Assembly (NCBI GenBank): GCA_031254315.1
Contig: JAIRUQ010000100.1
Location: 1-40,751 of the forward strand
Direction of reading: 5' to 3'
Source of the DNA: Treponema sp.
GTDB taxonomy: Bacteria; Spirochaetota; Spirochaetia; Treponematales; Breznakiellaceae
DNA: 40,751 bases
Shown here: one piece after another, positions 2,457 to 29,551 of the stretch
Layout of the letters: the number at the start of each line of letters is the position of its first letter
Numbering within the stretch: position 1 is the stretch's first letter
Notes under the pieces: model-generated
The model's input: only the letters and a program-made list of their open reading frames with translations
What the model was told of the DNA's origin: nothing
The model's database searches: none
Position numbers and translations under genes: made by a program

Positions 2457-3797
2457 TTACGCGCTCATCCTTTGGCGTCGTTCCTGATTAAGACGCCACA
2501 CCTTGCTTAAAATTAAAGCGACTGTATTCCAGTACGCCTCCGGGATAACATCCCCTACATCGGTTTCACGGTACAGCGCCCAAGCTAGGGGTTTATTTTC
2601 TACAAGCGGAACCCCGCTATCCTGCGCTATCTGCCTGATCCTTGCCGCCATTTCATCAGCGCCAAGAGCGGTAACTGTAGGACCAATCATCGATTTTTGG
2701 TCGTACTGCAGAGCCACGGCAAGGTGAGTCGGGTTTGTTATTACAACATCCGCTTTTGGAACTGATGTGGAAATATTCTGTCTTAACAGTTCGCGGAAAC
2801 GACTACGAATCCTGCTCTGTATCTGCGGATCGGCTTCGTACATTTTCAATTCTTCTTTTATCTCATGCCTTGTCATCTTGTGCCGTTCGCGGAAACGATA
2901 CCGCTGGAAAAAATAATCCGCTATTGAAAGAATAAGCAACAAAACCGCAACAACTATAATCATTTTTATAGCGATTGAAGCTACCAAAGTAAGACCGGAA
3001 TAGACATCCCCTTTTTGCAGATTGAGCAATTTTTCAAGCTCTGAGCTTATAAAAAGATACGCGACAACTCCAATAATCACAATTTTAGCGAGAGACTTGC
3101 CAAGATTAAAAAGTCCTTCCGACGAAAAGATACGCTTGAAATATTTTCCGAACTTGGGTATTGCCTTAGAAAAGTTAGGAGTAATAGGTTTTGTTGTAAA
3201 CAGAAAACCACCAAGCTGAACTAAATTTGAAAAAATAGCCGCAAAAACCGCTACAGCAAGAATAGGAACTGCAAGCTTTATAAAATATATGAAAAAATTC
3301 CCAACGACAATCGTGTCTTTTGTCGGGTCTAATTCTACAGCACGCAGGAAGAAAAAGCGAACCATCTCTACACAGGTTTTCAACATTGACGGAGCCATGA
3401 AAAGCAGTAGTAGGGCGGGCAAAAATAATCCTATCGCCCCGACCAGTTCCTGACTTTTTATTACTTGCCCTTCTTCACGCAGTCGTTTGAGTTTATGCTC
3501 GGTAGGCTGTTCAGTCTTCCCCGGCGCATCCTCATCATCTTCATCCGAAAACCACTGCAAATGAATGAATGGGACAGCAAACAGCGATACCTGATTGATA
3601 AAGGGGTTTTCAATTTCATTGCTCATTGCTAACCGCTCATTGCTAATTGGGCGCACTACTCGGACTAAAGTCCTCGCGCATTTTTCATCACATTGACCTT
3701 CTTTAGCGCCACGCTGTGCTGATTTATTCATCCACACGGCTTTGCCGTGCATACTTGGGCGTTGCTCATTGCTAATTGCTAATTGTTCATTACTCAT
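2457..3797 (-). CDS. flhB: FlhB export-apparatus switch protein with repeat-encoded N-terminal extension
   Basis: FlhB switches export specificity from hook to filament proteins. The core from about residue 62 carries the motif GKTEQPTEHKLKRLREEGQV, four membrane segments, and the autocleavage site NPTH followed by LAVAL near residue 355. The first 61 residues are not FlhB-like. They are encoded by heptanucleotide repeats (MSNEQLAISNEQ, ISNERLAMSNE) flanking a structured repeat at 3651-3762, and all of it stays in frame. The start overlaps the fliR stop as TAATG, which suggests translational coupling and supports translation of the extension. A second possible start is the ATG of MSNEIENPF near residue 59. 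Without the extension the protein would be about 385 residues, close to the family norm. Confidence 0.95.
   Translation of the reverse strand: MSNEQLAISNEQRPSMHGKAVWMNKSAQRGAKEGQCDEKCARTLVRVVRPISNERLAMSNEIENPFINQVSLFAVPFIHLQWFSDEDDEDAPGKTEQPTEHKLKRLREEGQVIKSQELVGAIGLFLPALLLLFMAPSMLKTCVEMVRFFFLRAVELDPTKDTIVVGNFFIYFIKLAVPILAVAVFAAIFSNLVQLGGFLFTTKPITPNFSKAIPKFGKYFKRIFSSEGLFNLGKSLAKIVIIGVVAYLFISSELEKLLNLQKGDVYSGLTLVASIAIKMIIVVAVLLLILSIADYFFQRYRFRERHKMTRHEIKEELKMYEADPQIQSRIRSRFRELLRQNISTSVPKADVVITNPTHLAVALQYDQKSMIGPTVTALGADEMAARIRQIAQDSGVPLVENKPLAWALYRETDVGDVIPEAYWNTVALILSKVWRLNQERRQRMSA
3611..3797 (-). repeat. Heptanucleotide repeat arrays flanking repeat copy A
   Basis: On the minus strand, five degenerate heptamers of the type CAATGAG/TAATGAG/CAATTAG lie on each side of the structured repeat (about 3763-3797 and 3613-3650). 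They encode the peptide pattern SNEQLAISNEQ at the start of FlhB. A similar array lies at 14733-14766. Heptamers are not a multiple of three, so a gain or loss of one unit would shift the flhB frame. Confidence 0.75.
3651..3762 (+). repeat. Structured dispersed repeat, copy A (inside flhB)
   Basis: About 112 bp beginning GCGCACTACTCGG and ending CTTGGGCG. It contains two hairpins: GGACT-AA-AGTCC at 3662-3673 and CACGGC-TTT-GCCGTG at 3735-3749. Between them is a conserved core with CATTGACC, TAGCGCCACGC and TGATTTATT. Two other copies occur at 9772-9886 and, inverted, at 29439-29551. Here the element lies within the N-terminal coding region of flhB without breaking the frame. Confidence 0.85.
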
Positions 3798-4675
3798 TAG
3801 TATCCCCTCCCCCCGTCCGTAATTTGCCGTCCAATTTGGGTGTAGAGACTTTGAATACTGCCAAAACCGGAATCGATCACATGGGTAAAGGCTTCTATCA
3901 TAAAAGGCAGTGAAAGAAGAATTAACATAAAAGCTGTTAAAATTGAAATTGGAAAGCCCTCTGAAAGAATATTTACCTGAGGAGCCGCTTTAGAAATTAA
4001 TCCTGTAGTAAGGGATGTAAGGAACAGAGTGCCAAGAATCGGCAGTGAAATAACAAACGCGTCCATGAATAAACGCGAAAGCCCGGAAGCCATCATGCCT
4101 ACAACAGGCTCTCTGCCGTCAACAAGCGAAATGATGTTAATTGTCTGCACCGAACGCCAAAAACCTCCAAGGAAAAGCTGATGAAAGCCGCCTATTGTAA
4201 CAAAAATCAACATTGACACAAGATTGAAATACTGACCCATAAGCGGATTTTCAACTTGGGCTACCGGGTCAAATGTTTCCGAAGCACCAAATCCCATTTG
4301 AAGTGAAAAGAACTGCCCTGCCGTAGAAAAAGCGGCAAAAATGACAGTCATGTAAAAGCCGATAATTATGCCGATTATCCCCTCGCCAATAAGGAGCAGA
4401 AGGAAACGAAGACTGAACACCTCATAACGCAGATCGCTTAATTCGCCGCCGGGAAGTGTTACAAGACCAGAAGGAGAGTTAGCCGCCATATAAATTTCCG
4501 CTGTGGGAAGGACAGCAAAAGCGGCAAGACCGGCAAGCGCTATTTTCGCGGTCTGCGGAACCGCTTCTGAAGAAAGAAGCGGAGCGACTTGTATCATAGC
4601 GAAAGCTCTGGCGGCGATTAAGAGAAAAACCGGACCAAATGAGAGAATATTCTGTAAAATGGGCGCGTCTATCAC
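3797..4675 (-). CDS. fliR: FliR flagellar export gate protein
   Basis: A hydrophobic protein of 292 residues with about six membrane segments (VFLLIAARAFAMIQ, ALAGLAAFAVLP, GIIIGFYMTVIFAAFSTAG) and the FliR-typical stretch ASETFDPVAQVENPLMGQY. FliR packs with FliP and FliQ into the helical export gate at the centre of the basal body. The start is a GTG at 4675 with AAAGG just upstream. It follows fliQ after an 8-base gap, and its stop overlaps the flhB start. Nothing suggests damage. Confidence 0.95.
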   Translation of the reverse strand: MIDAPILQNILSFGPVFLLIAARAFAMIQVAPLLSSEAVPQTAKIALAGLAAFAVLPTAEIYMAANSPSGLVTLPGGELSDLRYEVFSLRFLLLLIGEGIIGIIIGFYMTVIFAAFSTAGQFFSLQMGFGASETFDPVAQVENPLMGQYFNLVSMLIFVTIGGFHQLFLGGFWRSVQTINIISLVDGREPVVGMMASGLSRLFMDAFVISLPILGTLFLTSLTTGLISKAAPQVNILSEGFPISILTAFMLILLSLPFMIEAFTHVIDSGFGSIQSLYTQIGRQITDGGRGY

Positions 4676-4683
4676 TACCTTTC

Positions 4684-4953
4684 CTACCTCACCATATCTG
4701 GAATTTTACTGAACAGGTCTTTTGTGTATTCGCCAAGAGAGCTGAACATAAATCCGCCAAGAAGCGCAAGCATTCCTAAAATAACAAACATCTTTGGAAC
4801 AAATGTGAGCGTCTGCTCCTGAATTGACGTAGCCGCCTGCAGTATCGCTACAATCAAACCGACAATTAACGCGGATAACAATAAAGGAGCCGCGATCATC
4901 AGCACCTGAAATATTCCACCGCGTAAAATAGTTATTGCGTCTCCTATACTCAT
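4684..4953 (-). CDS. fliQ: FliQ flagellar export gate protein
   Basis: At 89 residues with two long membrane helices (PLLLSALIVGLIVAILQAAT, and MFVILGMLALLGGFMF), it has the length and hairpin topology of FliQ. The motif QAATSIQEQTLTFVPK between the helices is the family signature. Several copies of FliQ surround FliP and FliR in the export gate. It starts at an ATG seven bases after fliP and ends just before fliR, so it is part of a tightly packed operon. Confidence 0.95.
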   Translation of the reverse strand: MSIGDAITILRGGIFQVLMIAAPLLLSALIVGLIVAILQAATSIQEQTLTFVPKMFVILGMLALLGGFMFSSLGEYTKDLFSKIPDMVR

Positions 4954-4960
4954 AACACAC

Positions 4961-5854
4961 CTACATAAAAGAACGGACCAATTGTTCCGTCAATAATCCC
5001 CATCCGTCAACAAGGATAAAAAGGATTAGCTTGAATGGCATGGAGATCATTACAGGAGGGAGCATGATCATACCCATGGACATGAGGGCGCTCGCCACTA
5101 CCATGTCGATTACTATAAACGGAATAAAGAGATATATTCCGATTTTAAAAGCTACAGTAAGCTCATTAAGAATGAACGCCGGAATTAAAACATAAGTAGG
5201 AACATCAGCTAATGTATTAGGACGGTCAAGACCGCGCATTGCCATAAAAAGCCGTATGTTCTCCGGTCGCTCACTCATCTGGCTGTACATAAAAACTCTT
5301 AAAGGGGCTTCCGCTTCCCTGTAGGCATTCTCCACAGAAAGCTCTCCTGTGGAAAGCGGACGAAGCGAGTTAGTATAAATTATACTAAATGTAGGCCACA
5401 TGATAAGAACGGTAAGAAAGAGTGATATTCCTAAAATCACCTGATTTGGCGGAACCTGCTGTAATGAAAGAGCGCGCTTGATAAAATCCAGAACAATGGA
5501 AATACGCAAAAAACTTGTCATCAAAATAATGATACTTGGCGCTAGAGAAAGCACCGTTAAAAGTAATAACAACTGTAATGAAAAAGCCACTTCCTGCCCG
5601 GTGGAAGGATTTCGGACAGTCAAGTCAATAAAAGGAATAACAGGAGGAGGCGGGGGCGTGATTATATTCATCGTCCCCTGCACAGCCATATCCGGGAAAG
5701 GCTCCGCCTGCGCGTTTGCGACGGCTGGGAAACAAATTGACATAACAACAAGCAGGGCGATTAAACACAGAGTTTTACCGAAAAGCCGCCTATTTTCAAG
5801 CAGGTCAGAGATTGCTCTTAACAGTCCTTTACAAAGTATTGTTATCTGCATCAT
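4961..5854 (-). CDS. fliP: FliP flagellar export gate protein
   Basis: A protein of 297 residues with a signal peptide (about residues 25-48, ending VANAQA) followed by the FliP family domain. Visible family motifs are PSIIILMTSFLRISIVL, QQVPPNQVILGISLFLT, FILNELTVAFKIGIYLFIPF and IDMVVASALMSMGM. FliP pentamers form the core of the export pore with FliR and FliQ. The start overlaps the fliO stop (ATGA); ATGATG gives two adjacent start choices. The cleaved signal peptide is usual for this family. Confidence 0.96.
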   Translation of the reverse strand: MMQITILCKGLLRAISDLLENRRLFGKTLCLIALLVVMSICFPAVANAQAEPFPDMAVQGTMNIITPPPPPVIPFIDLTVRNPSTGQEVAFSLQLLLLLTVLSLAPSIIILMTSFLRISIVLDFIKRALSLQQVPPNQVILGISLFLTVLIMWPTFSIIYTNSLRPLSTGELSVENAYREAEAPLRVFMYSQMSERPENIRLFMAMRGLDRPNTLADVPTYVLIPAFILNELTVAFKIGIYLFIPFIVIDMVVASALMSMGMIMLPPVMISMPFKLILFILVDGWGLLTEQLVRSFM

Positions 5855-6450
5855 AGCCCCTTGAGCCTTTCGCGGCGTTTGCGAATTTCATCAACGCCGG
5901 GAATGCTTTTTTCCGCCTGAGCTCCAAAACGCCTAAGCAGAGCGAGAAAATCAGGGAAACGACCGGGTGTTTGCGCGGTTTTTTTGGAATCTTCCAGCAA
6001 CATCGCGTCTATTATTTCCTTGTCGTCTATTTCGCTTATAAGGCTGACAGTCCCTTCGCCCGCTCCGACAAGCCATGCCTTAGAGCCGACAGAAACGATA
6101 TGCACATAACGGTTTAATCCGATAGAAGAACTTGCCAAAACTTTTAAGAAGGGGTCATTGGTAACAGTCTGTTTTGAAGAACGCTTAATAACAAAAACAA
6201 TCCCGTAGATTGCCGCCGCCGCCAGAGCTAAAACCAGTATCATTCTGATTACAAGCCAGATCGACGAGCCAGTTCCCGGCGCAGAAGGCGTGCCGGTATC
6301 TCTAAGGGGCATACCCTCCTCGGCAATTCGGTGCTGGTCTTCAACAGCAGGGGACGGATCGACAGACGTATCAGGCATATCTTGGGCGGAGATAGGTGTT
6401 ATTTGAGCGAAAAGCCCCACTGCTAAAAGGAGCAGGGCAAATTTAGACAC
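5851..6450 (-). CDS. fliO: FliO (FliZ-type) export-gate assembly protein
   Basis: A protein of 199 residues with an N-terminal signal peptide (ALLLLAVGLFAQITPISAQ), an acidic low-complexity stretch, one membrane segment near residues 65-88 (SSIWLVIRMILVLALAAAAI), and a cytoplasmic domain beginning KRSSKQTVTNDPFLKVLAS. This layout and the place directly before fliP fit FliO, which helps FliP assemble. FliO proteins are poorly conserved, so the call leans on topology and position. The start is a GTG at 6450 with GGGAGGG about 12 bases upstream. It is the first gene after the terminator at 6555-6580 and has its own candidate promoter. Confidence 0.82.
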   Translation of the reverse strand: MSKFALLLLAVGLFAQITPISAQDMPDTSVDPSPAVEDQHRIAEEGMPLRDTGTPSAPGTGSSIWLVIRMILVLALAAAAIYGIVFVIKRSSKQTVTNDPFLKVLASSSIGLNRYVHIVSVGSKAWLVGAGEGTVSLISEIDDKEIIDAMLLEDSKKTAQTPGRFPDFLALLRRFGAQAEKSIPGVDEIRKRRERLKGL

Positions 6451-6490
6451 TTTCAGTTCTTACCCTCCCAGATCAAACTGATTTTCACTA

Positions 6491-6519
6491 ATAGTATACT
6501 ATCTATGGAAATAAATCAA
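6491..6519 (-). promoter_or_regulatory. Candidate sigma-70 promoter for fliO-flhF
   Basis: On the minus strand, TTGATT (6514-6519) is followed after 17 bp by TACTAT (6491-6496), about 40 bases before the fliO start. The -10 area lies in the palindrome ATAGTATACTAT (6491-6502). It sits downstream of the terminator at 6555-6580, so the export-gate genes probably have their own transcription start. Confidence 0.6.
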
Positions 6520-6554
6520 GCGAAAACGGGAGAAAATGCCTAAAAAGACACAAA

Positions 6555-6580
6555 AAAAAGACCGGTTACCCGGTCTTTTT
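6555..6580. terminator. Hairpin terminator between fliY and fliO
   Basis: AAAAGACCGG, loop TTAC, CCGGTCTTTT forms a perfect 10-bp stem ending in a T run on either strand. It lies 50 bases after the fliY stop and should stop transcripts from fliL-fliM-fliY before fliO. Confidence 0.85.
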
Positions 6581-6630
6581 CGCTATTTTTACTGAATTCT
6601 GTCTACTAAGAGACATTTTTTGAACGACTG

Positions 6631-8783: not shown

Positions 8784-8848
8784 TTTTTCCCCTGCCTGAA
8801 CATATAATTCTTACAGTCTAAACCCATCTCCTACTCTTGACAAGAGTA

Positions 8849-9412: not shown

Positions 9413-9473
9413 TCCAAAACCTCCCTGCATCATAGTAAACGAATTTACATAGATTTACAGTAATTCCTTTAAA

Positions 9474-9500
9474 TCATCGGCGTTTTTCCCTCAGTTTTTA
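9474..9500 (-). promoter_or_regulatory. Candidate sigma-28 (FliA) promoter for fliL-fliM-fliY
   Basis: On the minus strand TAAAAACT (9493-9500), an 11-base spacer and GCCGATGA (9474-9481) closely match the sigma-28 pattern TAAAGTTT-N11-GCCGATAA. It lies about 60 bases before the fliL start, which suits a motility-class promoter. Confidence 0.72.
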
Positions 9501-9548
9501 AGGTTTTATATTGATATAAAAGAACAAAGGAAGAAAAGAAAAAGAAAA

Positions 9549-9768
9549 CCACGGAGGACACGGAGAACACAGAGGAAGAGGAAAAAGGGAAGAAAATTAA
9601 CCAAAATTCCGTGTTTTAGGGCTTCCGAGGGCATTTTTCAAGGAAATTTGAGATGTCCAAGGAAGAAGGAAGTAAGAATGAAATATATCGTTTCGCGGCG
9701 GAAAAGTTAGAAATTTAACCTAAATTCTCTTACACCTTCTCTTTTCTTTCTCCGTGTACTCCGTGTCA
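9549..9768. repeat. Inverted nonamer repeats bounding a 150-bp non-coding segment
   Basis: The left arm (about 9549-9583) contains CACGGAGGACACGGAG and the right arm (about 9735-9768) contains its near reverse complement, CTCCGTGTACTCCGTGT. The interval between them has no credible gene. The arms are tandem copies of a 9-bp unit of the type GGACACGGA. This could be a small non-autonomous mobile element or a repeat cluster. Together with repeat copy B it fills the 9434-9950 gap between the divergent fliL and pyk genes. Confidence 0.6.
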
Positions 9769-9771
9769 GGG

Positions 9772-9886
9772 GCGCGCTACTCGGACTAAAGTCCTCGCGC
9801 AACCATCCTCGCATTGACCTCAGTCTGCGCCACGCCGCGCTGATTTATTTATCTGTCCAGCTTAAACGCTGGACATCTTTGGGCGT
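9772..9886 (+). repeat. Structured dispersed repeat, copy B
   Basis: Begins GCGCGCTACTCGG and ends TTTGGGCGT. The first hairpin, GGACT-AA-AGTCC (9783-9794), is the same as in copy A. The second stem differs in sequence but is again perfect: GTCCAGC-TTAAAC-GCTGGAC (9855-9874). The core GCGCCACGC and CTGATTTATT is shared. It is intergenic, upstream of pyk. Confidence 0.85.
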
Positions 9887-9937
9887 GTGGTTATATTTTC
9901 TTCCATAATTGAGGTATTAAAAACGGCTAAAAGGTAG

Positions 9938-9943: not shown

Positions 9944-9950
9944 AAGAACC

Positions 9951-11762
9951 ATGCAAACCAGAAAAACCAAAATAGTATGTTCCCTCGGTCCGGCGTCATG
10001 GACTGATGAGGTTGTAGAAGCGCTTGTCCTTGCAGGGATGAATGTCGCCCGTCTTAATTTTTCCCACGGGGACCATAAAACGCACCGCGAATCAATAGAG
10101 CGCGTCAGGCGTGTTTCGGAAAAGCTGGGCGTTCCCATCGCCATTTTGCTTGATACAAAAGGACCGGAAATCCGTAGCGGAATGGTAGAAAATGACGGGA
10201 AAGTAACCATTAACAAGGATGATATTGTCGAAATTACCACCGATAACTGCTTAACAAGCGCGGCGCAGGGGCAAAAACCGGGGCGCATTTCAATTTCATG
10301 GAAAGAAGCCGCGAAAAGGCTCCAAGCCGGACACCATGTTCTTATAGCGGACGGTCTTCTTGACCTTGAAGTAACCGGCGTTACAGGCGATGTGATTAAA
10401 AGCAAAGCAAATAACACCGCTGTAATCGGGAGCAAAAAAAATGTAAATCTTACCGGCATTCACGCTCAGCTTCCAATCATGGGAGAACAGGATAAAGCGG
10501 ACATCGCTTTTGGCGCGGAAATGGGCATTGATTATATCGCCGCGAGTTTTTTGAGTTTTCCGCACGAAGTTACCGAAATCAAAAAATATCTTAAAACCCT
10601 AAACTCAAACGCCAAAGTGATCGCGAAAATAGAAAGCGGCGAAGGGCTTGAAAATATAAAAGAAATAGCCCGTCTTGCGGACGGCGTAATGGTGGCACGC
10701 GGAGACCTTGGTGTCCAGCTTCCCACAGAGCAGATTCCCCTCGCGCAAAAACACATAATTAATATATGCCGAAGAGCCGGAAAGCCCGTAATTACCGCGA
10801 CTCAGATGCTTGAATCGATGATTGTTAATCCGCGTCCTACGCGCGCCGAATTGACCGATGTCGCAAACGCGATTTTTGACGGAACGGACGCAATCATGCT
10901 TTCGGGGGAGACGGCAAACGGCGCTTACCCTGTTGAAGCGGTACGCACAATGGATAAAATCGCGCGAACAGTCGAAGAGTCGCAGGATTTCCGTATTCGT
11001 ATGAAAAATTCACACGACGAATGTCTTGCCGACGCGCATCTCTCTAGAGAAAATTTAGGCAAAATGATTTCACGTTCAGGAGTTGAAACTGCATCGGCGA
11101 TAAACGCCAAAGCTATTATCGCGCCGACACTCTCCGGCAAAACAGCGCGTATGCTCAGCGTTTACAGACCTGATGAGCCTGTGCTTGCCATAACTCCCAA
11201 CAAAGATGCCGAGCGGATAATGCAATTGTACTGGGGCGTTAGCACCCATTACACACCGTTAGTTGACGAAACAGAAACGATGATCAAAAACACAATGAAA
11301 ATAGCGACAGATACAGGAATAGCCGGTATCGCGGATAAAATTGTACTTGTTGCCGGTCTTCCGCTCCGCAGTCCGTATATGGTGAACACAGTCCGCGTTC
11401 TTATTCTTGGAACAGTGCTTACACGCTCAAGCATGGGCGGTTACGCAAACCCGAACGTTACGCGCATTCAAGGCAAGTTAATTCATGCTACAACGCCAAA
11501 CGACGCGCAGGAAAAAACATCTTCGCTTAAAGGTGAAATACTTGTGTGCAAAACGCTCACCAAAGACTACATTCCGGTACTCCGCATAGTAAAGGGAGTT
11601 ATCTGCGAAGATGTTTCTGAAATCAACGATGAGGAAATTTGCGATGCAAACAAAGACATTATATGGCTTTCCAATACCGGATATGACGCGGAAAAACTTA
11701 AACCGGGATTAACCGTAACAATTGACGCAAAACAGTTATTGGTGTACGAGGGGTCGATATAA
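9951..11762 (+). CDS. pyk: Pyruvate kinase with extra C-terminal domain
   Basis: Catalyses phosphoenolpyruvate plus ADP to pyruvate plus ATP in glycolysis. The N-terminal catalytic barrel is clear: RKTKIVCSLGPASW, MNVARLNFSHGDH, LLDTKGPEIRSG, the B domain, then VMVARGDLGVQLP and the signature PVITATQMLESMI with NPRPTRAEL and DAIMLSGETANGAYP. The allosteric C domain spans roughly residues 370-480. Residues beyond about 485 form an extra tail containing GEILVCKTLTKDYIPVL, resembling the PEP-utiliser-like extension of some bacterial enzymes, though without a confident His active site. Length 603 fits that longer type. The ATG lies directly after a -10 box with no ribosome-binding site. Confidence 0.95.
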   Translation: MQTRKTKIVCSLGPASWTDEVVEALVLAGMNVARLNFSHGDHKTHRESIERVRRVSEKLGVPIAILLDTKGPEIRSGMVENDGKVTINKDDIVEITTDNCLTSAAQGQKPGRISISWKEAAKRLQAGHHVLIADGLLDLEVTGVTGDVIKSKANNTAVIGSKKNVNLTGIHAQLPIMGEQDKADIAFGAEMGIDYIAASFLSFPHEVTEIKKYLKTLNSNAKVIAKIESGEGLENIKEIARLADGVMVARGDLGVQLPTEQIPLAQKHIINICRRAGKPVITATQMLESMIVNPRPTRAELTDVANAIFDGTDAIMLSGETANGAYPVEAVRTMDKIARTVEESQDFRIRMKNSHDECLADAHLSRENLGKMISRSGVETASAINAKAIIAPTLSGKTARMLSVYRPDEPVLAITPNKDAERIMQLYWGVSTHYTPLVDETETMIKNTMKIATDTGIAGIADKIVLVAGLPLRSPYMVNTVRVLILGTVLTRSSMGGYANPNVTRIQGKLIHATTPNDAQEKTSSLKGEILVCKTLTKDYIPVLRIVKGVICEDVSEINDEEICDANKDIIWLSNTGYDAEKLKPGLTVTIDAKQLLVYEGSI

Positions 11763-12395: not shown

Positions 12396-12923
12396 TTAAT
12401 TTGCAGTAAAGCCTATCGTTTTAGTTTTTGGGGGATGTACTATAAGGTTATTGAGGGAGGCTATAATTTTATTAATGATTGCCGCATTTTCCTTAAAATT
12501 ATGCTTTGTATCGTCTATGTGCAACATCAAAACTTTTTCTAAATCGTCTATTTTTTTGCGTATGGGTTTGGCAATATAGCGGCGCATATCTATGAAAGCC
12601 TTGACAACCGCTATATTTGTTTGCGTAGCGATTTTACTATTCAAAACAGAAGACAGCATTATAACGCCGTGTTCGGTAAAGGCAAAAGGAAGTTTACGCC
12701 GTCCACCCCAACTTGATGTCGCAAATTGCGACTTCAAGTTTTCATATTCATCTTTGGTTAACTGGAACATAAATTCGGACGGGAAGCGGTCTACATTACG
12801 TTTGACCGCCTGGTTCAGCACTTTAGTCTCTACCTTATAAATTCTTGCCAAATCCGAGTCCAGCATAACCTGATATCCTCGGACGTTATAAATCATTGAT
12901 TTTATGTTTTTCAACTCGTTCAT
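12396..12923 (-). CDS. ORF6N-domain DNA-binding protein (paralogue 1)
   Basis: A protein of 175 residues. Residues 8-95 match the ORF6N domain: IYNVRGYQVMLDSDLARIY, VLNQAVKRNVDRFPSEFMF, LTKDEY, and KLPFAFTEHGVIMLSSVLN. ORF6N is a phage-type DNA-binding domain related to KilA-N and phage antirepressors; its bacterial chromosomal role is largely unknown. The C-terminal half is helical and ends NNLIVHPPKTKTIGF, nearly the same tail as the paralogue at 18963-19481. The palindrome GTCGCAA-A-TTGCGAC at 12718-12732 lies inside the coding region at the variable loop (KSQFATSS). Upstream lie two large hairpins. Confidence 0.88.
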   Translation of the reverse strand: MNELKNIKSMIYNVRGYQVMLDSDLARIYKVETKVLNQAVKRNVDRFPSEFMFQLTKDEYENLKSQFATSSWGGRRKLPFAFTEHGVIMLSSVLNSKIATQTNIAVVKAFIDMRRYIAKPIRKKIDDLEKVLMLHIDDTKHNFKENAAIINKIIASLNNLIVHPPKTKTIGFTAN

Positions 12924-12932
12924 TTACATAAT

Positions 12933-12967
12933 CAACATACCCCGTCGCAGAGCAACGGGGTATGTTG
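12933..12967. other. Perfect 13-bp inverted repeat upstream of ORF6N gene 1
   Basis: CAACATACCCCGT (12933-12945), nine-base loop, ACGGGGTATGTTG (12955-12967). It starts 10 bases upstream of the ORF6N start codon, so it could be an operator, an attenuator or part of a palindromic repeat. Confidence 0.75.
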
Positions 12968-12989
12968 TTCTCATAAGGTGGTTGGACTC

Positions 12990-13037
12990 GGGTTTAATAC
13001 CTTTATAACCGCCCCAGAGGGGCGGGGTATTAAACCC
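12990..13037. repeat. Nested double-stem palindrome, 48 bp
   Basis: The outer arms GGGTTTAATACC and GGTATTAAACCC are perfect 12-bp complements. Inside them CCGCCCC-AGA-GGGGCGG makes a second perfect stem, with only a short asymmetric spacer (TTTATAA). Such a compact GC-rich nested hairpin resembles a mobile palindromic unit or a strong bidirectional terminator. It shares the 12924-13252 gap with a hairpin and a gene fragment. Confidence 0.8.
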
Positions 13038-13106
13038 TTGCCACGAATAATGGACAAAGAATATGAAAAAAGTCAAGCAATGACAAAGCAAATAACAAGA
13101 ACACGC

Positions 13107-13232
13107 CTACACAGAAAAGGCAAAAGGAAGTTTACGCCGTCCGCTCCAACTTGATGTCACAATTTGTGACTTCAAGTCTTCATTTTCAAGTCTTTGCTAA
13201 AGGTCGCAAATTGTGACCTTAAATCTGTCCAT
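13107..13232 (-). pseudogene. ORF6N gene fragment
   Basis: The minus strand at 13107-13184 reads NEDLKSQIVTSSWSGRRK then LPFAFSV and a stop, a close match to the variable-loop region of the ORF6N gene at 12396-12923. A second, frameshifted copy of the loop (DLRSQFATF) lies at about 13199-13230. Two palindromes, GTCACAA-T-TTGTGAC (13156-13170) and an imperfect one at 13203-13218, sit in the fragment. No N-terminal domain is present, so it cannot be a working gene. Confidence 0.75.
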
Positions 13233-14840: not shown

Positions 14841-17800
14841 TTAATTTTTTTCCGCTAGTTTGATTTTTACAAGCCATGTTTGCTCTCCGGCTTCTATGGG
14901 GATTTGACCGTCTGTTTTTGTCCATTCGGTTTTTACAGCAAGGGTTTCTGAGGCGGCTTCTTGTGAAAAGCCGTCCCACGCTTCTTTGAGAGAATCATGT
15001 CCGTAAACGTAGAGTTCTATGCGATCCGTTACGGATAAGCCCATTTCTTTTCGGGCGTTTTGTATGCCGCGGATTAAGTCACGGATGTCGCCTTCCATTG
15101 AAAGTTCACGGGTTATTTCTGTGTCAAGACCGACTGTAAGAGTGCCTTCGTTAAGAACACGCAGGTTAGCCTTTTCTTTTCTGCGGATGTCGAGTTTGTC
15201 CGCTGTTATTTCAACCGCTCTTACGCCGCCTTCACCTTGAATGTCTATGGAAAGAGATGAGTTTTCTATTACGCTTTTAATTTCAGCGTGTGTCAGCTCT
15301 TCAATTTTGGCGGCGGCGGCTTTCATGTCCTTGCCAAGCTCTTTTCCCAAAACACGGAAGTTGGCTTTTACTTCGTATTCTACGAGGTCTTCTTCGTTAT
15401 CTGAAAAAACAATCTCTTTTACGTTTAGCTCTTCTCGGATAATGTCCGCCATACCGATTAAGGCTTTCTTTTCGTTATCGTTGCGTGTAACAAGTTCCGC
15501 CTTGCGAAGCGGCTGGCGCATTTTGATGTTGTACTGTGAGCGCAACGAGCGCCCGATTGAAACTGCTGACATTACAGATGCCATACGGAACTCAAGCTCT
15601 TTGTTACGGCGTTTTTCATCGGGGACAGGGAAGTCTGCAAGGTGTATTGATTCACTCTCGCTTTCCAGCCGCAGATTTTGCCAGATAGCGTCTGTGGTGA
15701 ATGGCATAAAAGGCGACGCGACAGTTATAAGTGTTTTAAGAGCGTCGTAAAGAGCGCCGTATGCTTCGAGTTTGTCGCTGTCGTTTTCACTGCGCCAAAA
15801 TCTTCTGCGAGAGCGGCGGATGTACCAGTTGTTGAGGAGGTCAATGAAGCGAAGGATTGGATCGACAGCGGCGCTTAGATCATAAGCGTCAAGCGCGAGC
15901 GTAACTTTTTCTACGAGGGTTTGAGTTTCAGATAATATCCATTGATCAAGGGGATTGACAGGTTCTTTCGGCGCGCCTGTAGCGGTAACTTTGTCGATGT
16001 TCGCGTAGGTGATAAAAAAACTGTACGCATTCCAAAGCGGGATGATGATGCTTTTCATCACTTCACGTACGCCTTCATCGCTGTAACGAAGGTCGTCCGC
16101 TTTTACTACCGCCGAGTGGACCAAAAAAAGCCTGAGCGCGTCCGCTCCAAATGCGTTTAGAACTTCGTTGGGGTCTGTATAATTGCGAAGGCTTTTGCTC
16201 ATTTTTTTTCCGTCTGACGCGAGGACAAGCCCACTGACGATGCAGTTTTTGAACGCAGGTTTATTGAAGAGTGCCGCAGAAAGGACGATGAGCGTATAAA
16301 ACCAGCCTCGTGTTTGATCAAGTCCTTCACTTACAAAGTCTGACGGGAAATGGTTATCAAAAAATTCTTTGTTTTCAAACGGGTAGTGGTTCTGCGCATA
16401 CGGCATGGCTCCCGATTCAAACCAGCAGTCAAGGACTTCGGGGACTCGTGTCATAGTACCGGTGCATGTGCCGCCTGTCTTTGAACAGGGGATCGTTATT
16501 TCATCGACAAAATGTTTGTGCAAATCTTCGGGGTAGATGCCTGAAAGTTCTTTTAATTCGGCTCGGCTTCCTACGCAGATTGTTTTGCCGCACTCCTCGC
16601 ATCTCCAGATTGGAAGGGGATTGCCCCAGAAGCGGCTTCTGCTGATTGCCCAGTCTCGCGCGCCTTCGAGCCATTTGCCGAATCTGCCTTCTTTGATGTG
16701 TTCGGGAACCCAGTAGACTTGGCTGTTTGCGTCTAACAGAGCTTTTTTTACTTTTTCTACGCTGACGAACCAAGAGCCGACGGCACGGTAGATGAGCGGG
16801 CTTGAACAACGCCAGCAGTGAGGATAGGCGTGAAGGATTTGTTCACGTTTTATTAGTTTGCCTTCCTGTTTAAGTTTTTCCATGATTGCCTTGTCTGCGT
16901 CTTTTACGAACATTCCCGCAAAGTCGCTGACTTCGGATGTGAATTTACATTCTGCGTCTACTGGGCATATCACGGGGATGCCTGTTCCTTTGAGTACGCG
17001 CGCATCATCTTCGCCAAATCCGGGTGCGGTATGCACGATGCCGGTTCCGTCTTCTGTTGTAACAAAGTCGCCGAGGAACGTGCGAAAAGCGTTAGGCGCA
17101 TCTTTGAAATATGGAAAGAGGGGTTCGTATTGTATTCCCGCAAGTTCCGCGCCTTTTTTTCGCCAAATTATTTTATATTCTGTTTCGGTTTTGTAGTACG
17201 CTCCAAGACGGGCTTCCGCTAAGATGTAATGTTGAGAAGTGGCGATGTCTTCTATTAATACATAATCTATATCAGCGCCGAGTGTAAGCGCGAGGTTTGA
17301 GGGTAATGTCCACGGGGTTGTAGTCCATGCAAGCAGATAAGTGTTGGGGGGCGTTGCGGGGGGGACACCACCCGCAGAGGGGGGGAGCGGAGAAACCGAA
17401 GGTTTCGTAGCGAGGGGGAGCGGACTGTCAGCATTTATTGTTACTGCAGCCGTTGTTTGTCCTACGCCGTGTTGCATTTTTTCATCCGCACGCTCTCGCG
17501 TGCTGTTTTCTGGCGTCCCCCCCATAACTTTAAATCTTACGGTTATTGCCGGATCGTTTACATCTTTGTAGCCGCCTTGGCTGAGTTCGTGGTTGGAGAG
17601 GACTGTGGCGCAACGCGGGCAGTATGGAAGGATGTAGTGTCCTTCGTAAAGTAGTCCTTTGTCCCAGAGGGATTTCATGACCCACCAAATTGTTTCCATG
17701 TAGTCGGCTTCCATTGTTTTGTAATCGTTGTCGAAGTCTACCCAGCGTCCGAGCCGAGTGATTGTCGCGCGCCATTCTTTCACATAACGGAGGACTGAGG

Positions 17801-18164
17801 CGCGGCAGGCTTCGTTGAATTTCGCGATGCCGTATTTTTCGATGTCGGTTTTTGAGGACAGTCCGAATTCTTTTTCGATAAGGTTTTCGACGGGGAGTCC
17901 GTGGCAGTCCCACCCAAAGCGGCGTTCTACTTTTTTGCCTTTCATTGCATGGTAACGCGGTATGATGTCTTTGATTGTGCTTGGAACGAAATGTCCAAAG
18001 TGCGGCAAGCCTGTCGCAAAGGGCGGTCCGTCATAAAAGACAAACTCCTGCGCTCCTTCTCTTTGCGTTACGGATTTTTCAAAGATTTTATTTTGCTCCC
18101 AGAACTTGAGGACTTCTTCTTCCAGCTTTGGGAAATTTACTTTTGCGTCAACCGGTTTATACAC
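14841..18164 (-). CDS. ileS: Isoleucyl-tRNA synthetase with an in-frame repeat insertion
   Basis: A class I aminoacyl-tRNA synthetase that charges tRNA-Ile. The HIGH-type motif is in GLPHFGHFVPSTIKD (about residue 53), the editing domain begins at YLLAWTTTPWTLPSN (about 276), tryptophan and Cys motifs follow, and the KMSKS loop is DGKKMSKSLRNY (about residue 660). At 1107 residues with a long C-terminal part it resembles the long IleS2 type. Residues about 213-274 are not synthetase-like: Pro, Thr and charged residues encoded by a GC-rich repeat (17345-17525), placed between the catalytic fold and the editing domain, where a flexible loop can be tolerated. The start is a GTG at 18164 with AAGGAG 8 bases upstream. 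Confidence 0.97.
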   Translation of the reverse strand: MYKPVDAKVNFPKLEEEVLKFWEQNKIFEKSVTQREGAQEFVFYDGPPFATGLPHFGHFVPSTIKDIIPRYHAMKGKKVERRFGWDCHGLPVENLIEKEFGLSSKTDIEKYGIAKFNEACRASVLRYVKEWRATITRLGRWVDFDNDYKTMEADYMETIWWVMKSLWDKGLLYEGHYILPYCPRCATVLSNHELSQGGYKDVNDPAITVRFKVMGGTPENSTRERADEKMQHGVGQTTAAVTINADSPLPLATKPSVSPLPPSAGGVPPATPPNTYLLAWTTTPWTLPSNLALTLGADIDYVLIEDIATSQHYILAEARLGAYYKTETEYKIIWRKKGAELAGIQYEPLFPYFKDAPNAFRTFLGDFVTTEDGTGIVHTAPGFGEDDARVLKGTGIPVICPVDAECKFTSEVSDFAGMFVKDADKAIMEKLKQEGKLIKREQILHAYPHCWRCSSPLIYRAVGSWFVSVEKVKKALLDANSQVYWVPEHIKEGRFGKWLEGARDWAISRSRFWGNPLPIWRCEECGKTICVGSRAELKELSGIYPEDLHKHFVDEITIPCSKTGGTCTGTMTRVPEVLDCWFESGAMPYAQNHYPFENKEFFDNHFPSDFVSEGLDQTRGWFYTLIVLSAALFNKPAFKNCIVSGLVLASDGKKMSKSLRNYTDPNEVLNAFGADALRLFLVHSAVVKADDLRYSDEGVREVMKSIIIPLWNAYSFFITYANIDKVTATGAPKEPVNPLDQWILSETQTLVEKVTLALDAYDLSAAVDPILRFIDLLNNWYIRRSRRRFWRSENDSDKLEAYGALYDALKTLITVASPFMPFTTDAIWQNLRLESESESIHLADFPVPDEKRRNKELEFRMASVMSAVSIGRSLRSQYNIKMRQPLRKAELVTRNDNEKKALIGMADIIREELNVKEIVFSDNEEDLVEYEVKANFRVLGKELGKDMKAAAAKIEELTHAEIKSVIENSSLSIDIQGEGGVRAVEITADKLDIRRKEKANLRVLNEGTLTVGLDTEITRELSMEGDIRDLIRGIQNARKEMGLSVTDRIELYVYGHDSLKEAWDGFSQEAASETLAVKTEWTKTDGQIPIEAGEQTWLVKIKLAEKN
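17345..17525. repeat. GC-rich inverted-repeat element inserted in ileS
   Basis: Bounded by near-complementary ends GGGGGGACACC (about 17359) and GGCGTCCCCCC (17512-17522). Inside are hairpins GAAACC-GAA-GGTTTC (about 17391-17405) and GCACGC-TCTC-GCGTGC (about 17488-17503). It encodes about 60 residues in frame (for example SPLPLATKPSVSPLPPSAGG). The composition is far richer in G runs than the flanking gene. Exact ends were not determined. Confidence 0.75.
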
Positions 18165-19688: not shown

Positions 19689-19712
19689 TGACTGAAGGGG
19701 AGGGAACTCAAG

Positions 19713-22272: not shown

Positions 22273-22386
22273 GGTTACCTGACAGTAAACTCAGAATGAA
22301 AAGAGAGAATGATAGACTCCATCATTGTTCATTTGCTACCCACCCATACTCCCTAAAATATGCTATACTAAAACCCTGAGGTAAAC

Positions 22387-26120: not shown

Positions 26121-26140
26121 AAGAAAAATGAAATACTAGA

Positions 26141-26170
26141 GATGTTCGGAAACTCCAGTTTCTGGGCATC
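26141..26170 (+). terminator. Imperfect hairpin after the DUF3999 gene
   Basis: GATG, GAAACT-CC-AGTTTC and CATC pair around internal mismatches, 20 bases after the stop codon. It could act as a terminator for the DUF2339/DUF3999 pair, though no clear T run follows. Confidence 0.4.
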
Positions 26171-26174
26171 TTCC

Positions 26175-26624
26175 TTATAAAACAGATATTTCATCAACAA
26201 TTAATATTATTGGCGTATGGTGATGTCCGGTAAATGCAAAGAATGCCTTTCCTTTAATATTATAATTCCAATTCGCATTAAAATTCCTGCTTATAGTATT
26301 ATTTAATATTAATTGAATTTCTTCAACTGCTATAGGTTTTAATCCATCCGGTAATATAATTGGTTCACGCAATTTTAAAACATAATAAGCTTCAATTTTG
26401 TCAATTTCAGGCGTTTCTCCATAATTAGGCGGACCATAAAATTCTTTCATTGAAATATTTCCATTAACATTAATTTCAAAATCATCAAGTCCGGTATACA
26501 GATTTGTATTTACCGGTGTTGTTTTCTGAGAATTATTATTTAAATATTTTAGAGATAAATAGCTTCCAATTACGATAAAAAATAAAATTAATATTATAAT
26601 AACTTTATTCTTTTTATTGTCCAT
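26175..26624 (-). CDS. DUF4431-like membrane-anchored protein
   Basis: A protein of 149 residues with an N-terminal membrane anchor (VIIILILFFIVIGSYLSLKY) and an outer domain containing MKEFYGPPNYGETPEID, a central YYVLKLREPIILPDG and the closing FAFTGHHHTPIILIVDEI. The FYGPPNYGE and TGHHHTP motifs are those of DUF4431, a small domain of unknown function in secreted proteins. AT content is much higher than in the DUF3999 gene next door. AAAGGATG precedes the ATG. Confidence 0.68.
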   Translation of the reverse strand: MDNKKNKVIIILILFFIVIGSYLSLKYLNNNSQKTTPVNTNLYTGLDDFEINVNGNISMKEFYGPPNYGETPEIDKIEAYYVLKLREPIILPDGLKPIAVEEIQLILNNTISRNFNANWNYNIKGKAFFAFTGHHHTPIILIVDEISVL

Positions 26625-26674
26625 GCTTCTTAAACATCCTTTAATTTAGGGGATATTACTTATATTCGGTCTTA

Positions 26675-27376
26675 TTACCATATTCCCTTTTCTCTCTGCT
26701 GTCGAATAAATTCTACAGTCTCATTCCGCATTATATTTAGATCAGTATTTAGAATATATCTTTTTAATTCATTATTTAATATTCTATTATTTGTAGCATA
26801 ATTTCTGACTTGGGGATATGTCATTGCGTTTGATGCTATTGACCACATTGCCGATCTTACAACTAAATATAAATTTAGATTTTCTGTTTCATTATGATAT
26901 TGCATTATAATTGTTAATAGATAGTCAATATATTGAACATTTCCTGATGAAAAATAAAGTGTCCAATAAATATCATTTAATTCAGGGCTTGGTTCTTGCT
27001 GTCTAAGAAATAATGCAATATCATTATTGTCAATTACATCAAATATATTTATTAGTCTTTGCAGATTATGTGTTCTTACAATTTCTCTAAAATTGTTATA
27101 TTTAGCTATGTTATCAGTTTTTATCCCATAAAAGAAAAATAATATAATGTTATCTACCTGTTCCAACATTCCCGTATAATTTTTATTTTTATATATGCTT
27201 ATAGTTTCATATATTATTAGATCGTTTTTGTTTTCAAAATAATGCATTATATGATCTGAGTATTCTTCAAGAGTTATTTCAGGAGATTCTCCCGAAGAAT
27301 TATCAGAGTTCTGAGGTGTTCCCGCACAACTGGCAAAAATAAACATGACAACCAATATACTAATAGTTCTTCTCAT
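26675..27376 (-). CDS. Hypothetical lipoprotein
   Basis: A protein of 233 residues from the ATG at 27376 (MRRTISILVVMFIFASC), with the lipobox FASC. GGAG lies 7 bases upstream; a TTG five codons earlier would contain the ribosome-binding site itself. The mature protein is helical and polar, rich in Asn, Ile and Tyr (for example YTGMLEQVDNIILFFFYG and NRILNNELKRYILNTDLNIM), and resembles a helical-repeat fold, but I recognise no family. It shares low GC with the neighbouring DUF4431 gene, with 50 bases between them, so they may form one transcript. Confidence 0.7.
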   Translation of the reverse strand: MRRTISILVVMFIFASCAGTPQNSDNSSGESPEITLEEYSDHIMHYFENKNDLIIYETISIYKNKNYTGMLEQVDNIILFFFYGIKTDNIAKYNNFREIVRTHNLQRLINIFDVIDNNDIALFLRQQEPSPELNDIYWTLYFSSGNVQYIDYLLTIIMQYHNETENLNLYLVVRSAMWSIASNAMTYPQVRNYATNNRILNNELKRYILNTDLNIMRNETVEFIRQQREKGIW

Positions 27377-27431
27377 GTTTTTCTCCTTCAAATGAAATTC
27401 TATACAAGTATAGATAAATTTTCGAATAACG

Positions 27432-28403
27432 TTATATCCACTTGCGGCGTTTGAAAAAGATAATCATTCCTATAGCGATACAGAACATAACGCCCCAAAC
27501 AATGAAATATGCGGGAGCATAATCCAGTTCCGGCATAAAAGTAAAGTTCATTCCGTAGACACCGACGATGAAAGTAAGCGGAATAAAAATAGTTGATATA
27601 ATTGTTAATACCTTCATCACCTGATTGAGCCGGTTTGATACAACAGTCATATTTATTTCCATTATACCCGCAATTAATTCCCTGTAGGTATCAACGGTCT
27701 CAGCGGCTTGAATAACATGATCGTACAGGTCTTTAAGGAAAGGGTCTAGGTCATTGTTAAGTAAGTTTGATTCAAGACGCATCAGCATAAAAATGCTTTC
27801 CCGCAATGGCCAAACAGCACGCCTCATTTTAAGTAGCTTTCGTTTTACACCCTGAATATCTTTAATAAAAGTTTCGTCCTTTTCTGTCAGAGCCCGATCC
27901 TCAAAAACTTCTATTTCCGAGCCGAATGTATCAATACTTATAAAATATTCGTCTACTACCGTATCAATGATTGTATACGCAAGATAATCCGCTCCCATAC
28001 GGCGATGCCGTCCTGCCTTATTCATAATCCGTCTTTTGATAGTTTCAAAATCATTGCCGCCCTTGTCCTGAAAAGTCAGTACCATATCGCCGGTTATTAT
28101 CATGCTAATATGCGAAAGACCGGAATCCGTCTCAAAATTAACCGCCTTGAAGGTAACAAACAGATAATTCTCAAATTCTTCTACCTTTGGGCGCTGATGG
28201 GTATGATCAAGAATATCTTCGACTGTTAATGGATGTATACCGAAAATTTCAGCCATACGGTTGACCTCTTCCGGTTTATCAATATTTTCCGCCTGAATCC
28301 ATGTGATACCAGCTGGCTTTTCCCATCCGGTCAATTGTTCAGATTTGGAAAGATTTTGTGTCCATACACCGGCGGCATCATATCCAGTAATTGATAAAGT
28401 CAT
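27432..28403 (-). CDS. corA: CorA magnesium/cobalt transporter
   Basis: A protein of 323 residues. The N-terminal cytoplasmic domain includes FGIHPLTVEDILDHTHQRPK, a conserved CorA stretch. The long stalk helix follows, and the C-terminal membrane pair contains the GMN signature in VYGMNFTFMPELDY with flanking helices (TIISTIFIPLTFIVG and AYFIVWGVMFCIAIGMIIFF). It is predicted to take up Mg2+ or other divalent ions through the inner membrane. The ATG lacks a ribosome-binding site but lies 6 bases after a -10 box. Confidence 0.95.
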   Translation of the reverse strand: MTLSITGYDAAGVWTQNLSKSEQLTGWEKPAGITWIQAENIDKPEEVNRMAEIFGIHPLTVEDILDHTHQRPKVEEFENYLFVTFKAVNFETDSGLSHISMIITGDMVLTFQDKGGNDFETIKRRIMNKAGRHRRMGADYLAYTIIDTVVDEYFISIDTFGSEIEVFEDRALTEKDETFIKDIQGVKRKLLKMRRAVWPLRESIFMLMRLESNLLNNDLDPFLKDLYDHVIQAAETVDTYRELIAGIMEINMTVVSNRLNQVMKVLTIISTIFIPLTFIVGVYGMNFTFMPELDYAPAYFIVWGVMFCIAIGMIIFFKRRKWI

Positions 28404-28409
28404 GGTATA

Positions 28410-28438
28410 ACAATACTACTGTATTTAAATACATGCAA
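28410..28438 (-). promoter_or_regulatory. Promoter of corA, leaderless layout
   Basis: On the minus strand TTGCAT (28433-28438), 17-bp spacer, TATTGT (28410-28415), six bases to the corA ATG. The spacer contains the palindrome GTATTTAAATAC. Confidence 0.6.
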
Positions 28439-28545
28439 GGCTTGAAAGTCCGGTTTTATACATCCCTCCGTCGGCAGTGCAAGGAAAATGATTATCCGAC
28501 ACAGCCATCGAGCCGGAGTTTAGCGTCAGCTTGTACCTACCCTGT

Positions 28546-28560
28546 CAGACTTTAAGTCTG
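28546..28560. other. Hairpin in the corA-barrel gene intergenic region
   Basis: CAGACTT-T-AAGTCTG is a perfect 7-bp inverted repeat in a GC-rich stretch (28450-28580) that has no credible gene and resembles repeat debris. Confidence 0.55.
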
Positions 28561-28582
28561 CGCTCTACCCCGCGGAGGCTCA

Positions 28583-28611
28583 TTGCTTATCTGCTCTTTT
28601 TATATTAAAAT
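28583..28611 (+). promoter_or_regulatory. Promoter of the outer-membrane barrel gene
   Basis: TTGCTT (28583-28588), 17-bp spacer, TAAAAT (28606-28611), about 22 bases before the ATG at 28634. Confidence 0.6.
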
Positions 28612-28633
28612 TCAGAAAAAGTGGAGGTATTTC

Positions 28634-29329
28634 ATGAAAAGAATCTTTCTATTCTTTTTTCTGACTGTTCTAATTACCGGCTTTGCTTTTGCGGAATTTC
28701 AATTAGAATCCGGTTTTGGATATTTCTTTAACACCGACAATTATTCAGATGGTAAGAGATCATTTAACGGTATGAATATTAATATTACTTCAAGATATTT
28801 CTTCACAGAAAATATCGGTATATTTCTTGCTAGTGATTTTAAAGTATGGTTTGAAGCTGACAATAGCGCTTATATAGAGGCATTTAAATCAGAAGGGATT
28901 AATTATATCGCCGATGAATCTGTAGGTTTTAAACTAGACCTTAATTTCGGGCTTGCGTTAGCATATCCTATTAACGAAAGATTTGGCATACAAGCTGATA
29001 TAGGACTTGCAAATACCGTATTTTTGGTAGATGGAACAGCAGGTACAGCAAGTCAAATTGGAGGGGGGGCATCATTTAAAACAAACATACATATAGAAAG
29101 AGCATCCAGCATAGGGATTTACACAAACATTTTTGGTCGTTATCTCTTAATGAGTGATATGACCGGCAAAGGTTATTTAACTTTTGGATTAAGACTGGAC
29201 TGTAAATTTACAAGAACCGAAACTGTCGAAATTAACATGGCAGGAGTATCAGAGAGAGGTGCCGTTACAGAGCCTTATTTTTTAGGTTTTTCTATTGCGC
29301 CGTTTATCGGTTTTTTGGGAAGATTTTAA
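28634..29329 (+). CDS. Putative outer-membrane beta-barrel protein
   Basis: A protein of 231 residues from the ATG at 28634, which has GGAGG 7 bases upstream. A signal peptide (IFLFFFLTVLITGFAFAEF) is followed by alternating hydrophobic and polar strands with many aromatic residues (FQLESGFGYFFNTDNYSD, GIFLASDFKVWFEA, LDLNFGLALAYPINERFG, YLTFGLRLDCKF) and a C-terminal strand ending FIGFLGRF with terminal Phe, as in barrel proteins. Secreted to the outer membrane by inference. No closer family is recognised. Confidence 0.75.
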   Translation: MKRIFLFFFLTVLITGFAFAEFQLESGFGYFFNTDNYSDGKRSFNGMNINITSRYFFTENIGIFLASDFKVWFEADNSAYIEAFKSEGINYIADESVGFKLDLNFGLALAYPINERFGIQADIGLANTVFLVDGTAGTASQIGGGASFKTNIHIERASSIGIYTNIFGRYLLMSDMTGKGYLTFGLRLDCKFTRTETVEINMAGVSERGAVTEPYFLGFSIAPFIGFLGRF

Positions 29330-29361
29330 AGAGTACGCTTTCTTCTCTATTACGGAATTTA

Positions 29362-29380
29362 TTCCCCAGGGAGGATTTGA
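29362..29380 (-). repeat. Duplicated 3' end of tRNA-Gln
   Basis: These 19 bp are identical to 29681-29699, the 3' end of tRNA-Gln (T-arm part, acceptor strand and discriminator). The copies are direct repeats, 319 bp apart, and enclose 29381-29680. This is the pattern left by integration at a tRNA 3' end, but no integrase lies between them. Confidence 0.8.
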
Positions 29381-29438
29381 CTTCCAACCCTCGGCTTCCT
29401 GCCGAGGGCTTCCAGTCCGCCTGCGCGCTCCCCGGCGC

Positions 29439-29551
29439 ACGCCCAAGCATGCACGGCAAAGCCGTGTCTATGAAAAAAGTCAACACGGCGTGGCGCTAAA
29501 AAAGGTCAATGTGACCTTAAATGCGCGAGGGCTTTAGCCCGAGTAGCGCGC
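29439..29551 (-). repeat. Structured dispersed repeat, copy C (inverted)
   Basis: Reading on the minus strand it begins GCGCGCTACTCGG and ends CTTGGGCGT. The first stem is GGGCT-AA-AGCCC (29529-29540), differing from copies A and B by a compensated base pair; the second stem is CACGGC-TTT-GCCGTG (29452-29466), as in copy A. Hairpins CCCTCGGC/GCCGAGGG (about 29390-29407) and AAGGC-TTC-GCCTT lie beside it. Together these fill the 29330-29680 gap. Confidence 0.85.

Follow-up and report, generated by a model that had tools for sequence, protein, structure and literature searches.

Three copies of a two-module repeat in a Treponema contig

The DNA analyzed here, called the window throughout, is a 40,751-nt contig (JAIRUQ010000100.1; C48 in our numbering) of the Treponema sp. 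genome GCA_031254315.1, which comprises 3.1 Mb in 127 contigs. It contains three intact copies of a gene-free element of ~113 bp, located in the reading frame of the export-gate gene flhB, upstream of the pyruvate kinase gene, and behind a tRNA-Gln gene, as well as a decayed, weakly scoring fourth copy within ileS (Table 1). An initial annotation made from this sequence had described the first three copies as lying in a gene, upstream of a gene and in a tRNA-linked segment, and both the copies and their surroundings were found as described. The named relatives found via FlhB are Treponema/Spirochaetaceae bins, which, to judge by the bin names, are probably of termite-gut origin.

Table 1. Positions of the element copies and associated features in the window
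Feature	Coordinates	Strand	L module	R module	Score (window profile search)	Context
Copy 1	3650-3761	+	3650-3710	3711-3761	106 bits	Within the flhB reading frame (opposite strand)
Copy 2	9771-9886	+	9771-9831	9832-9886	87 bits	In a CTCCGTG repeat upstream of pyruvate kinase
Copy 3	29440-29552	-	29552-29492	29491-29440	99 bits	In a hairpin loop of the tRNA-linked composite
Decayed fourth copy	17431-17516	+		Best kept part	13 bits, E 0.002 (at 17431-17498); 21 bits, E 8e-4 with the 29-copy model	In frame on the minus strand within ileS
flhB (Bac_export_2)	2457-3797	-				Contains copy 1
Pyruvate kinase	9951-11762	+				Downstream neighbor of copy 2
ileS (tRNA-synt_1)	14841-18164	-				Contains the fourth copy
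tRNA-linked composite	29362-29620	-				Carries copy 3
tRNA-Gln (CTG)	29681-29751	-				3' end 29681-29699 repeated at 29362-29380

The element is composed of an L module (~61 nt) followed by an R module (~52 nt). In each module, an outer stem, an inner hairpin and internal loops of unequal size can be drawn. The L module has an outer stem GGCGCRC...GYGCGCC and an inner hairpin of the GGACT-AA-AGTCC type, and the R module has an outer stem CGCC...GGCG and an inner hairpin of the CACGGC...GCCGTG type. The two inner stems were correctly read in the initial annotation: copies 1 and 2 have GGACT/AGTCC as the L inner stem where copy 3 has GGGCT/AGCCC, and copies 1 and 3 have CACGGC/GCCGTG as the R inner stem where copy 2 has GTCCAGC/GCTGGAC.

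Size and distribution of the family

The proposal that these copies belong to a mobile family had been made dependent on a genome-wide search finding further copies, and many were found. The pattern TACTCGGRCTNNAGYCCTCGCGC, with up to 3 mismatches, occurred at 74 sites in the genome (30 forward, 44 reverse) compared to 0 sites for the reversed pattern, so the likeness of the copies is far beyond chance. A sequence-only search model built from 29 copies gave at least 138 matches in the window's own genome at E up to 1, a lower bound since 150 of 909 candidates were scored. From stretches fetched from this genome, we delimited 71 full-length copies with shared, sharp ends; these and a corresponding set of 70 copies from relatives are used below, partial matches having been left out of both sets.

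With an E threshold of 0.001, the family was detected in 49 genomes out of 146 related ones, among them 33 of the 39 in the genus. The other 16 matching genomes belong to the same family as the genus, such that all matches fall within one taxonomic family. As 25 candidates were scored per genome, and several relatives are incomplete bins, copy counts in relatives are lower bounds, and E-values near 2e-4 in more distant genera could include chance matches. When more candidates were scored, we obtained 22 matches in genome G030, 13 in G008, 6 in G022, 26 in G053 and 2 in G076, and no element match in G019, G036 or G011. The phage and plasmid collections searched yielded no element match; one viral contig carries an exact match to a 23-base pattern. 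Among the titles and abstract beginnings searched, a scope outside which most subscription papers fall, no paper named this repeat family.

Compensatory changes in the stems

The initial annotation had claimed, from three copies, that changes on both arms preserve the pairing. We examined this in 79 copies from other genomes, aligned by the sequence-only model and hence not fitted to the structure. Stem cells were paired in 88.5% of cases, compared to 22-59% in slid-partner controls, and changes on both sides were seen in 14 of 22 pairs. Doubly changed cells numbered 144 against 31.2 expected in shuffles. None of 500 shuffles reached these values, confirming the claim on copies beyond those from which it was made. 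Covariation also extends past the two inner stems first noticed, in that outer stems exist and that of the R module, whose arms are ~40 nt apart, shows changes on both sides in 3 of 4 pairs. The L outer stem is almost invariant, so covariation tells little about it, and pairs 6-77, 7-76 and 112-146 were just 21-59% paired. The conserved unpaired parts are a TAAA loop and CATC. Alternative pairings, in which the 5' arm of L meets CGCGC and the 5' strand of R meets the inner hairpin, were rejected for want of covariation (7 cells versus 6.5, with 249 of 500 shuffles).

The pairing is kept at the DNA level

A census of 12 clean stem pairs was nearly pure Watson-Crick in both sets, with 824 Watson-Crick, 5 G·T, 11 A·C and 5 other combinations in the own-genome copies and 780, 6, 12 and 5, respectively, in the relatives' copies. 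The acceptor and T stems of tRNAs encoded at these loci served as a yardstick and gave 179 Watson-Crick, 27 G·T, 1 A·C and 9 other combinations; of 23 distinct tRNAs, the 18 with at least 9 of 12 standard pairs were used and the other 5 left out, a selection that favors paired cells. The ratio of G·T to A·C differed between the element and tRNA stems (Fisher p ~5e-6). Since G·T is no commoner than A·C in the element, unlike in tRNA stems, we conclude that the pairing is kept at the DNA level and that an RNA gene is not what maintains it. The pairing would thus either have its role in DNA or arise there, and the census is compatible alike with selection on a DNA hairpin and with homogenization of the arms by template switching. 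Of the initial claim that structure is being selected, the part that stands is the maintenance of pairing through changes on both arms; selection itself exceeds the data, as template-switching homogenization would give the same covariation.

Most copies lie outside long open reading frames (ORFs), 4 of the 71 being scored inside one, and there was no clear orientation preference relative to neighboring genes. One plus-strand frame of the element was open in 27 of 71 own and 31 of 70 relatives' copies, and another in 6 of 71 and 20 of 70; mononucleotide shuffles were open in ~22% per frame, and the minus frames of the element were rarely open. A coding role was rejected on these counts. Searches with Rfam 15 gave no element match at the gathering score in the window or in six loci, nor at a relaxed E in the stretches around copies 1 and 3.

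Insertion sites and nesting

The flhB site was compared across 30 fetched loci, comprising our own and 29 others. Of these 29 loci, all from the genus, 28 extend 300 nt or more beyond the FlhB match on its upstream side, and the site was empty in every one of the 28; L261 also lacked the element at flhB, with just 126 nt of upstream sequence available. In two loci, L264 and L267, a copy lies farther upstream, at a distance above 1 kb. A long FlhB match was obtained in 33 further genomes of the genus, and in each it began at query residue 50 or later, so that none covers the initial 49 residues of our flhB open frame, some of which are encoded by the element. The flhB start may be an ATG downstream of the element, in which case the element is perhaps untranslated there.

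In IleRS, residues 213-274 (62 residues) occupy the place of 6 residues in the best solved IleRS chain. The whole linker was present without an element-like part in 27 of 29 aligned relatives; in L290, the linker is shown just in part. This linker (window 17343-17528; loci L285-L313) gathers in-frame repeat-like insertions in the genus, and in several relatives it holds a different, proline-rich stretch.

CTCCGTG repeats hold 17 of the 71 own copies, all 17 in the same orientation. The right junction, at which GGCG of the element is followed by TGTGGT, was the same in 16 of these 17, while the left junctions were ragged. More than 20 CTCCGTG repeats in the same fetched stretches were without the element. 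The bodies of the 17 copies were as diverse as random sets (distance 0.258 versus 0.240, with 1849 of 2000 random sets at or below), and these copies are therefore not one amplified composite. Copies of the ATTCG class (7 copies; 823 of 2000) and the nested class (9 copies; 1558 of 2000) were also as diverse as random. In contrast, the six copies in tRNA-linked composites form one amplified lineage (within-distance 0.142 versus 0.241; none of 2000 random sets at or below). Somewhat closer than random, too, were the 32 copies outside the named classes (0.218, 2 of 2000). As a general feature of the fetched stretches, runs of CTCCGTG and ATTCGT, the element's targets, are frequent between genes (for example, window 9750-9770).

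Paralogous tRNA-linked composites with and without the L/R insert were found on contigs C98, C32 and C12, the insert lying in the loop of a small hairpin. In the composite behind tRNA-Gln (window 29362-29751), the T-arm is repeated in inverted orientation at 29608-29620, 19 bases of the tRNA 3' end are repeated directly at 29362-29380, and there are hairpins as well. On the other contigs compared (C12, C32 and C98 of the own genome, G000), the same composite stands behind tRNA-Ser genes and, on C98, behind what is presumably a tmRNA 3' end, with ends that match the local RNA gene in each case. Copies in relatives were also seen abutting stable RNA genes, namely those for a small signal recognition particle (SRP) RNA (L066, 1400-1498), a tRNA (L085, 1611-1682) and a tmRNA (L087, 1616-1962), and L081 resembles the L087 case.

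The modules occur in arrays of variable composition: LR (49), LLRR (8), LLR (3), LLLRR (1), LRLR (2), LRR (2), single R (16), single L (4) and others. The sequence TGTTC was carried by 10 of 14 L units that are preceded by another L, compared to 2 of 68 single L units. Copies thus appear arranged as if nested at the L/R junction, in the order L[LR]R. Nesting as one recent burst was rejected, as the distances of inner L and R units form no inner clade; the outer units were somewhat closer than random (23 and 21 of 1000).

Search for a mobilizing enzyme

The initial annotation had suggested looking for a partner transposase, and none was found in searches of the own genome, of Y1 loci in the genus or of flanking ORFs. 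The genome's sole Y1 transposase is a RAYT (NF047646, 109.7 bits, cut-off 80), which lies at L035 1250-1960 on contig C102 among a different repeat, the GGTGACWGTCACC palindromes, with 6 occurrences in L035. RAYT and these palindromes are a separate small-repeat system of this genome. None of 30 Y1/RAYT loci (the own locus and 29 from the genus, totaling 87 kb and including some weak Y1 matches) held the element. Y1_Tnp was present in 17 of 39 genus genomes: the element-rich genomes G030, G008 and G022, which are 92-95% complete, had no Y1_Tnp match, and G011, G027 and G038 had Y1 and no element match. RAYT as a partner was rejected after this search of the own and 39 genus genomes. We also took the 112 nearest ORFs to copies in long fetched stretches outside the window, dropped 3 of more than 700 aa and scanned the other 109 with Pfam; no family occurred in more than 3 of the 109, and no transposase was among the 25 commonest of 158 families.

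A lagging-strand orientation bias is expected of single-strand transposition of the IS200/IS605 kind. With 1.5-kb flanks, and copies within 3 kb of each other counted once, the element strand was the negative GC-skew strand at 40 of the 56 own loci and at 42 of the 64 in relatives. This bias was weaker when 200 nt around the copies were masked (29 of 46) and was no longer seen over longer distances, with 33 of 56 at 5 kb and 24 of 50 once the nearest 3 kb were left out. Because it is lost with longer flanks, we read it as the local composition of C-rich target repeats, and a replication-strand bias was rejected.

Nature of the element and rival explanations

We conclude that the element is probably an unnamed non-autonomous mobile DNA repeat of the general REP/RPE/BOX kind. 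The mobile structured element put forward in the initial annotation is well supported by the many copies, their sharp ends, the empty flhB site, the target entered in one orientation and the nesting. The hairpins, which would form in single-stranded or extruded DNA, would be recognized by a trans-supplied enzyme, which may since have been lost, or else be acted on during replication or repair; by either route, the element would be copied into its targets. Several observations weigh against mobility of this kind. The CTCCGTG sites showed, by eye, no target-site duplication; neither the inner L nor the inner R units were closer to one another than random sets, of which 626 and 164 of 1000, respectively, lay at or below, whereas a simple nesting burst would predict smaller distances; single-sequence folds often favor other pairings and differ between copies; and the contig that holds the sole Y1 gene is without a listed copy of the element, no mobilizing enzyme was found, and Y1 genes do not track the element in the genus. 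Replication-strand bias is likewise lacking, though expected for IS200/IS605-like transposition. The ileS insertion is not unique, since a weak match (12.7 bits, E 0.006), truncated where the contig begins, lies in the same linker of G035 (L291), making this linker either a hot spot or the site of an older insertion. Finally, mobility is deduced from sequence comparison.

The foremost rival, to which we give a smaller though appreciable chance, is that these are mobile repeats whose structure is not selected, the paired changes stemming from DNA template switching that homogenizes the arms of imperfect palindromes, a process described in two papers (PMC8604942, PMC7202029). The near-absence of G·T and A·C intermediates is a prediction of arm homogenization, but the conserved unpaired TAAA loop and CATC suggest recognition too, even if recent common descent could keep both, and the R outer stem covaries across ~40 nt. 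It is unlikely that the element is a deletion derivative of the IS200/IS605 type, with fused end hairpins, moved by a Y1 transposase since lost from most genomes. Such a derivative would share the two unlike end hairpins (one subterminal hairpin at each end), the lack of target duplication, the fixed target orientation and the ragged left junction; however, no related full-length element with a Y1 transposase was found in the own genome or the 30 Y1 loci, element-rich genomes are without a Y1_Tnp match, and the strand bias is absent with long flanks. Quite unlikely, in our judgment, is a short interspersed element of bacteria whose insertion would start at the right (3') end, by target-primed copying of a DNA or RNA template, without a dedicated transposase; a reverse transcriptase, or else the ordinary enzymes of replication or repair, would do the copying. 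The features behind this reading are the constant 3' junction with its CGTG target homology, the ragged 5' junction with a few differing bases, the fixed orientation and the lack of target duplication. That copies spread mainly through recombination as passengers of larger composites, such as the tRNA-linked unit, with no movement of their own, would account for the single lineage of tRNA-composite copies and for the closeness of the 32 unclassed copies, but the CTCCGTG, ATTCG and nested classes are as diverse as random copies, and we regard this as improbable. We give very little credence to a REP/REPIN repeat moved by the genome's own RAYT, a reading already contradicted: the one RAYT lies among the GGTGACWGTCACC repeat, the CTAC/GTAG tag occurs in 37 of the 71 own copies but in just 8 of the 70 from relatives, and Y1_Tnp does not follow the element among the genus genomes. 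A structured RNA, regulatory leader or small RNA is similarly far from probable. The stems covary and some copies abut tRNA, tmRNA or SRP RNA genes, yet the small-RNA family raised in the initial annotation is not supported, given the lack of G·U tolerance relative to tRNA stems, the lack of a clear gene-orientation preference, the presence of copies in protein-coding frames and the lack of an Rfam match in the stretches searched.

Comparison with known repeats

The mobile DNA repeat that we favor was likened to known families by their descriptions. BOX elements of pneumococci are modular repeats with a variable number of modules, as here, where modules vary in number and order; the element differs in its organism and in having two modules in the order L[LR]R. 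According to one report, BOX, RUP and SPRITE insert into one another, and Rickettsia palindromic elements (RPEs) are small palindromes in frame inside genes (PMC10969869). In-frame presence in protein genes was found here in ileS (the weak, decayed copy) and in the flhB open frame, but unlike RPEs, most copies lie outside long ORFs, and there are two modules. REP/REPIN and CGTC REPs are also short, clustered hairpin repeats in many copies; our element does not stand beside a RAYT gene (0 of 30 Y1/RAYT loci), lacks a conserved GTAG (CTAC) tag at the hairpin foot, and has modules with both outer and inner stems. CGTC REPs, as defined in their description, carry a CGTC tag beside an 8-9 bp stem, have no dedicated transposase and occur in five phyla, including Spirochaetes (PMC3733652). 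No such tag was seen by eye in the own or relatives' consensus. By these descriptions, CGTC REPs and RPEs are the nearest in kind to the element.

Two other classes were considered and rejected. Integron attC sites are DNA hairpins in which structure counts above sequence, with core sites RYYYAAC and GTTRRRY, and the RYYYAAC...GTTRRRY pair was in 0 of 71 own and 0 of 70 relatives' copies. A DDE-type miniature inverted-repeat transposable element was dismissed, as the ends GGCGCGC and GGGCG are not mutual inverted repeats and the CTCCGTG sites show no duplication by eye.

Small palindromic repeats are common in bacteria, and the mover of many families is unknown. This family offers strong leads: its unit is defined and has two modules, all 17 insertions into one target share an orientation, one site is empty in relatives, and some related genomes are rich in the repeat yet without RAYT. 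Copies have reached an export-gate gene, within its reading frame, and a loop of isoleucyl-tRNA synthetase. How such repeats move without a transposase becomes testable through comparison of close strains.

Other repeats in the window

The window holds other repeats, including a 73-nt pair (90% identical; within 12678-13188) and a 94-nt pair (97%; 35522-35615 and 38165-38258). Several diverged repeated segments also occur within long ORFs at 32413-34315 and 35731-37977.

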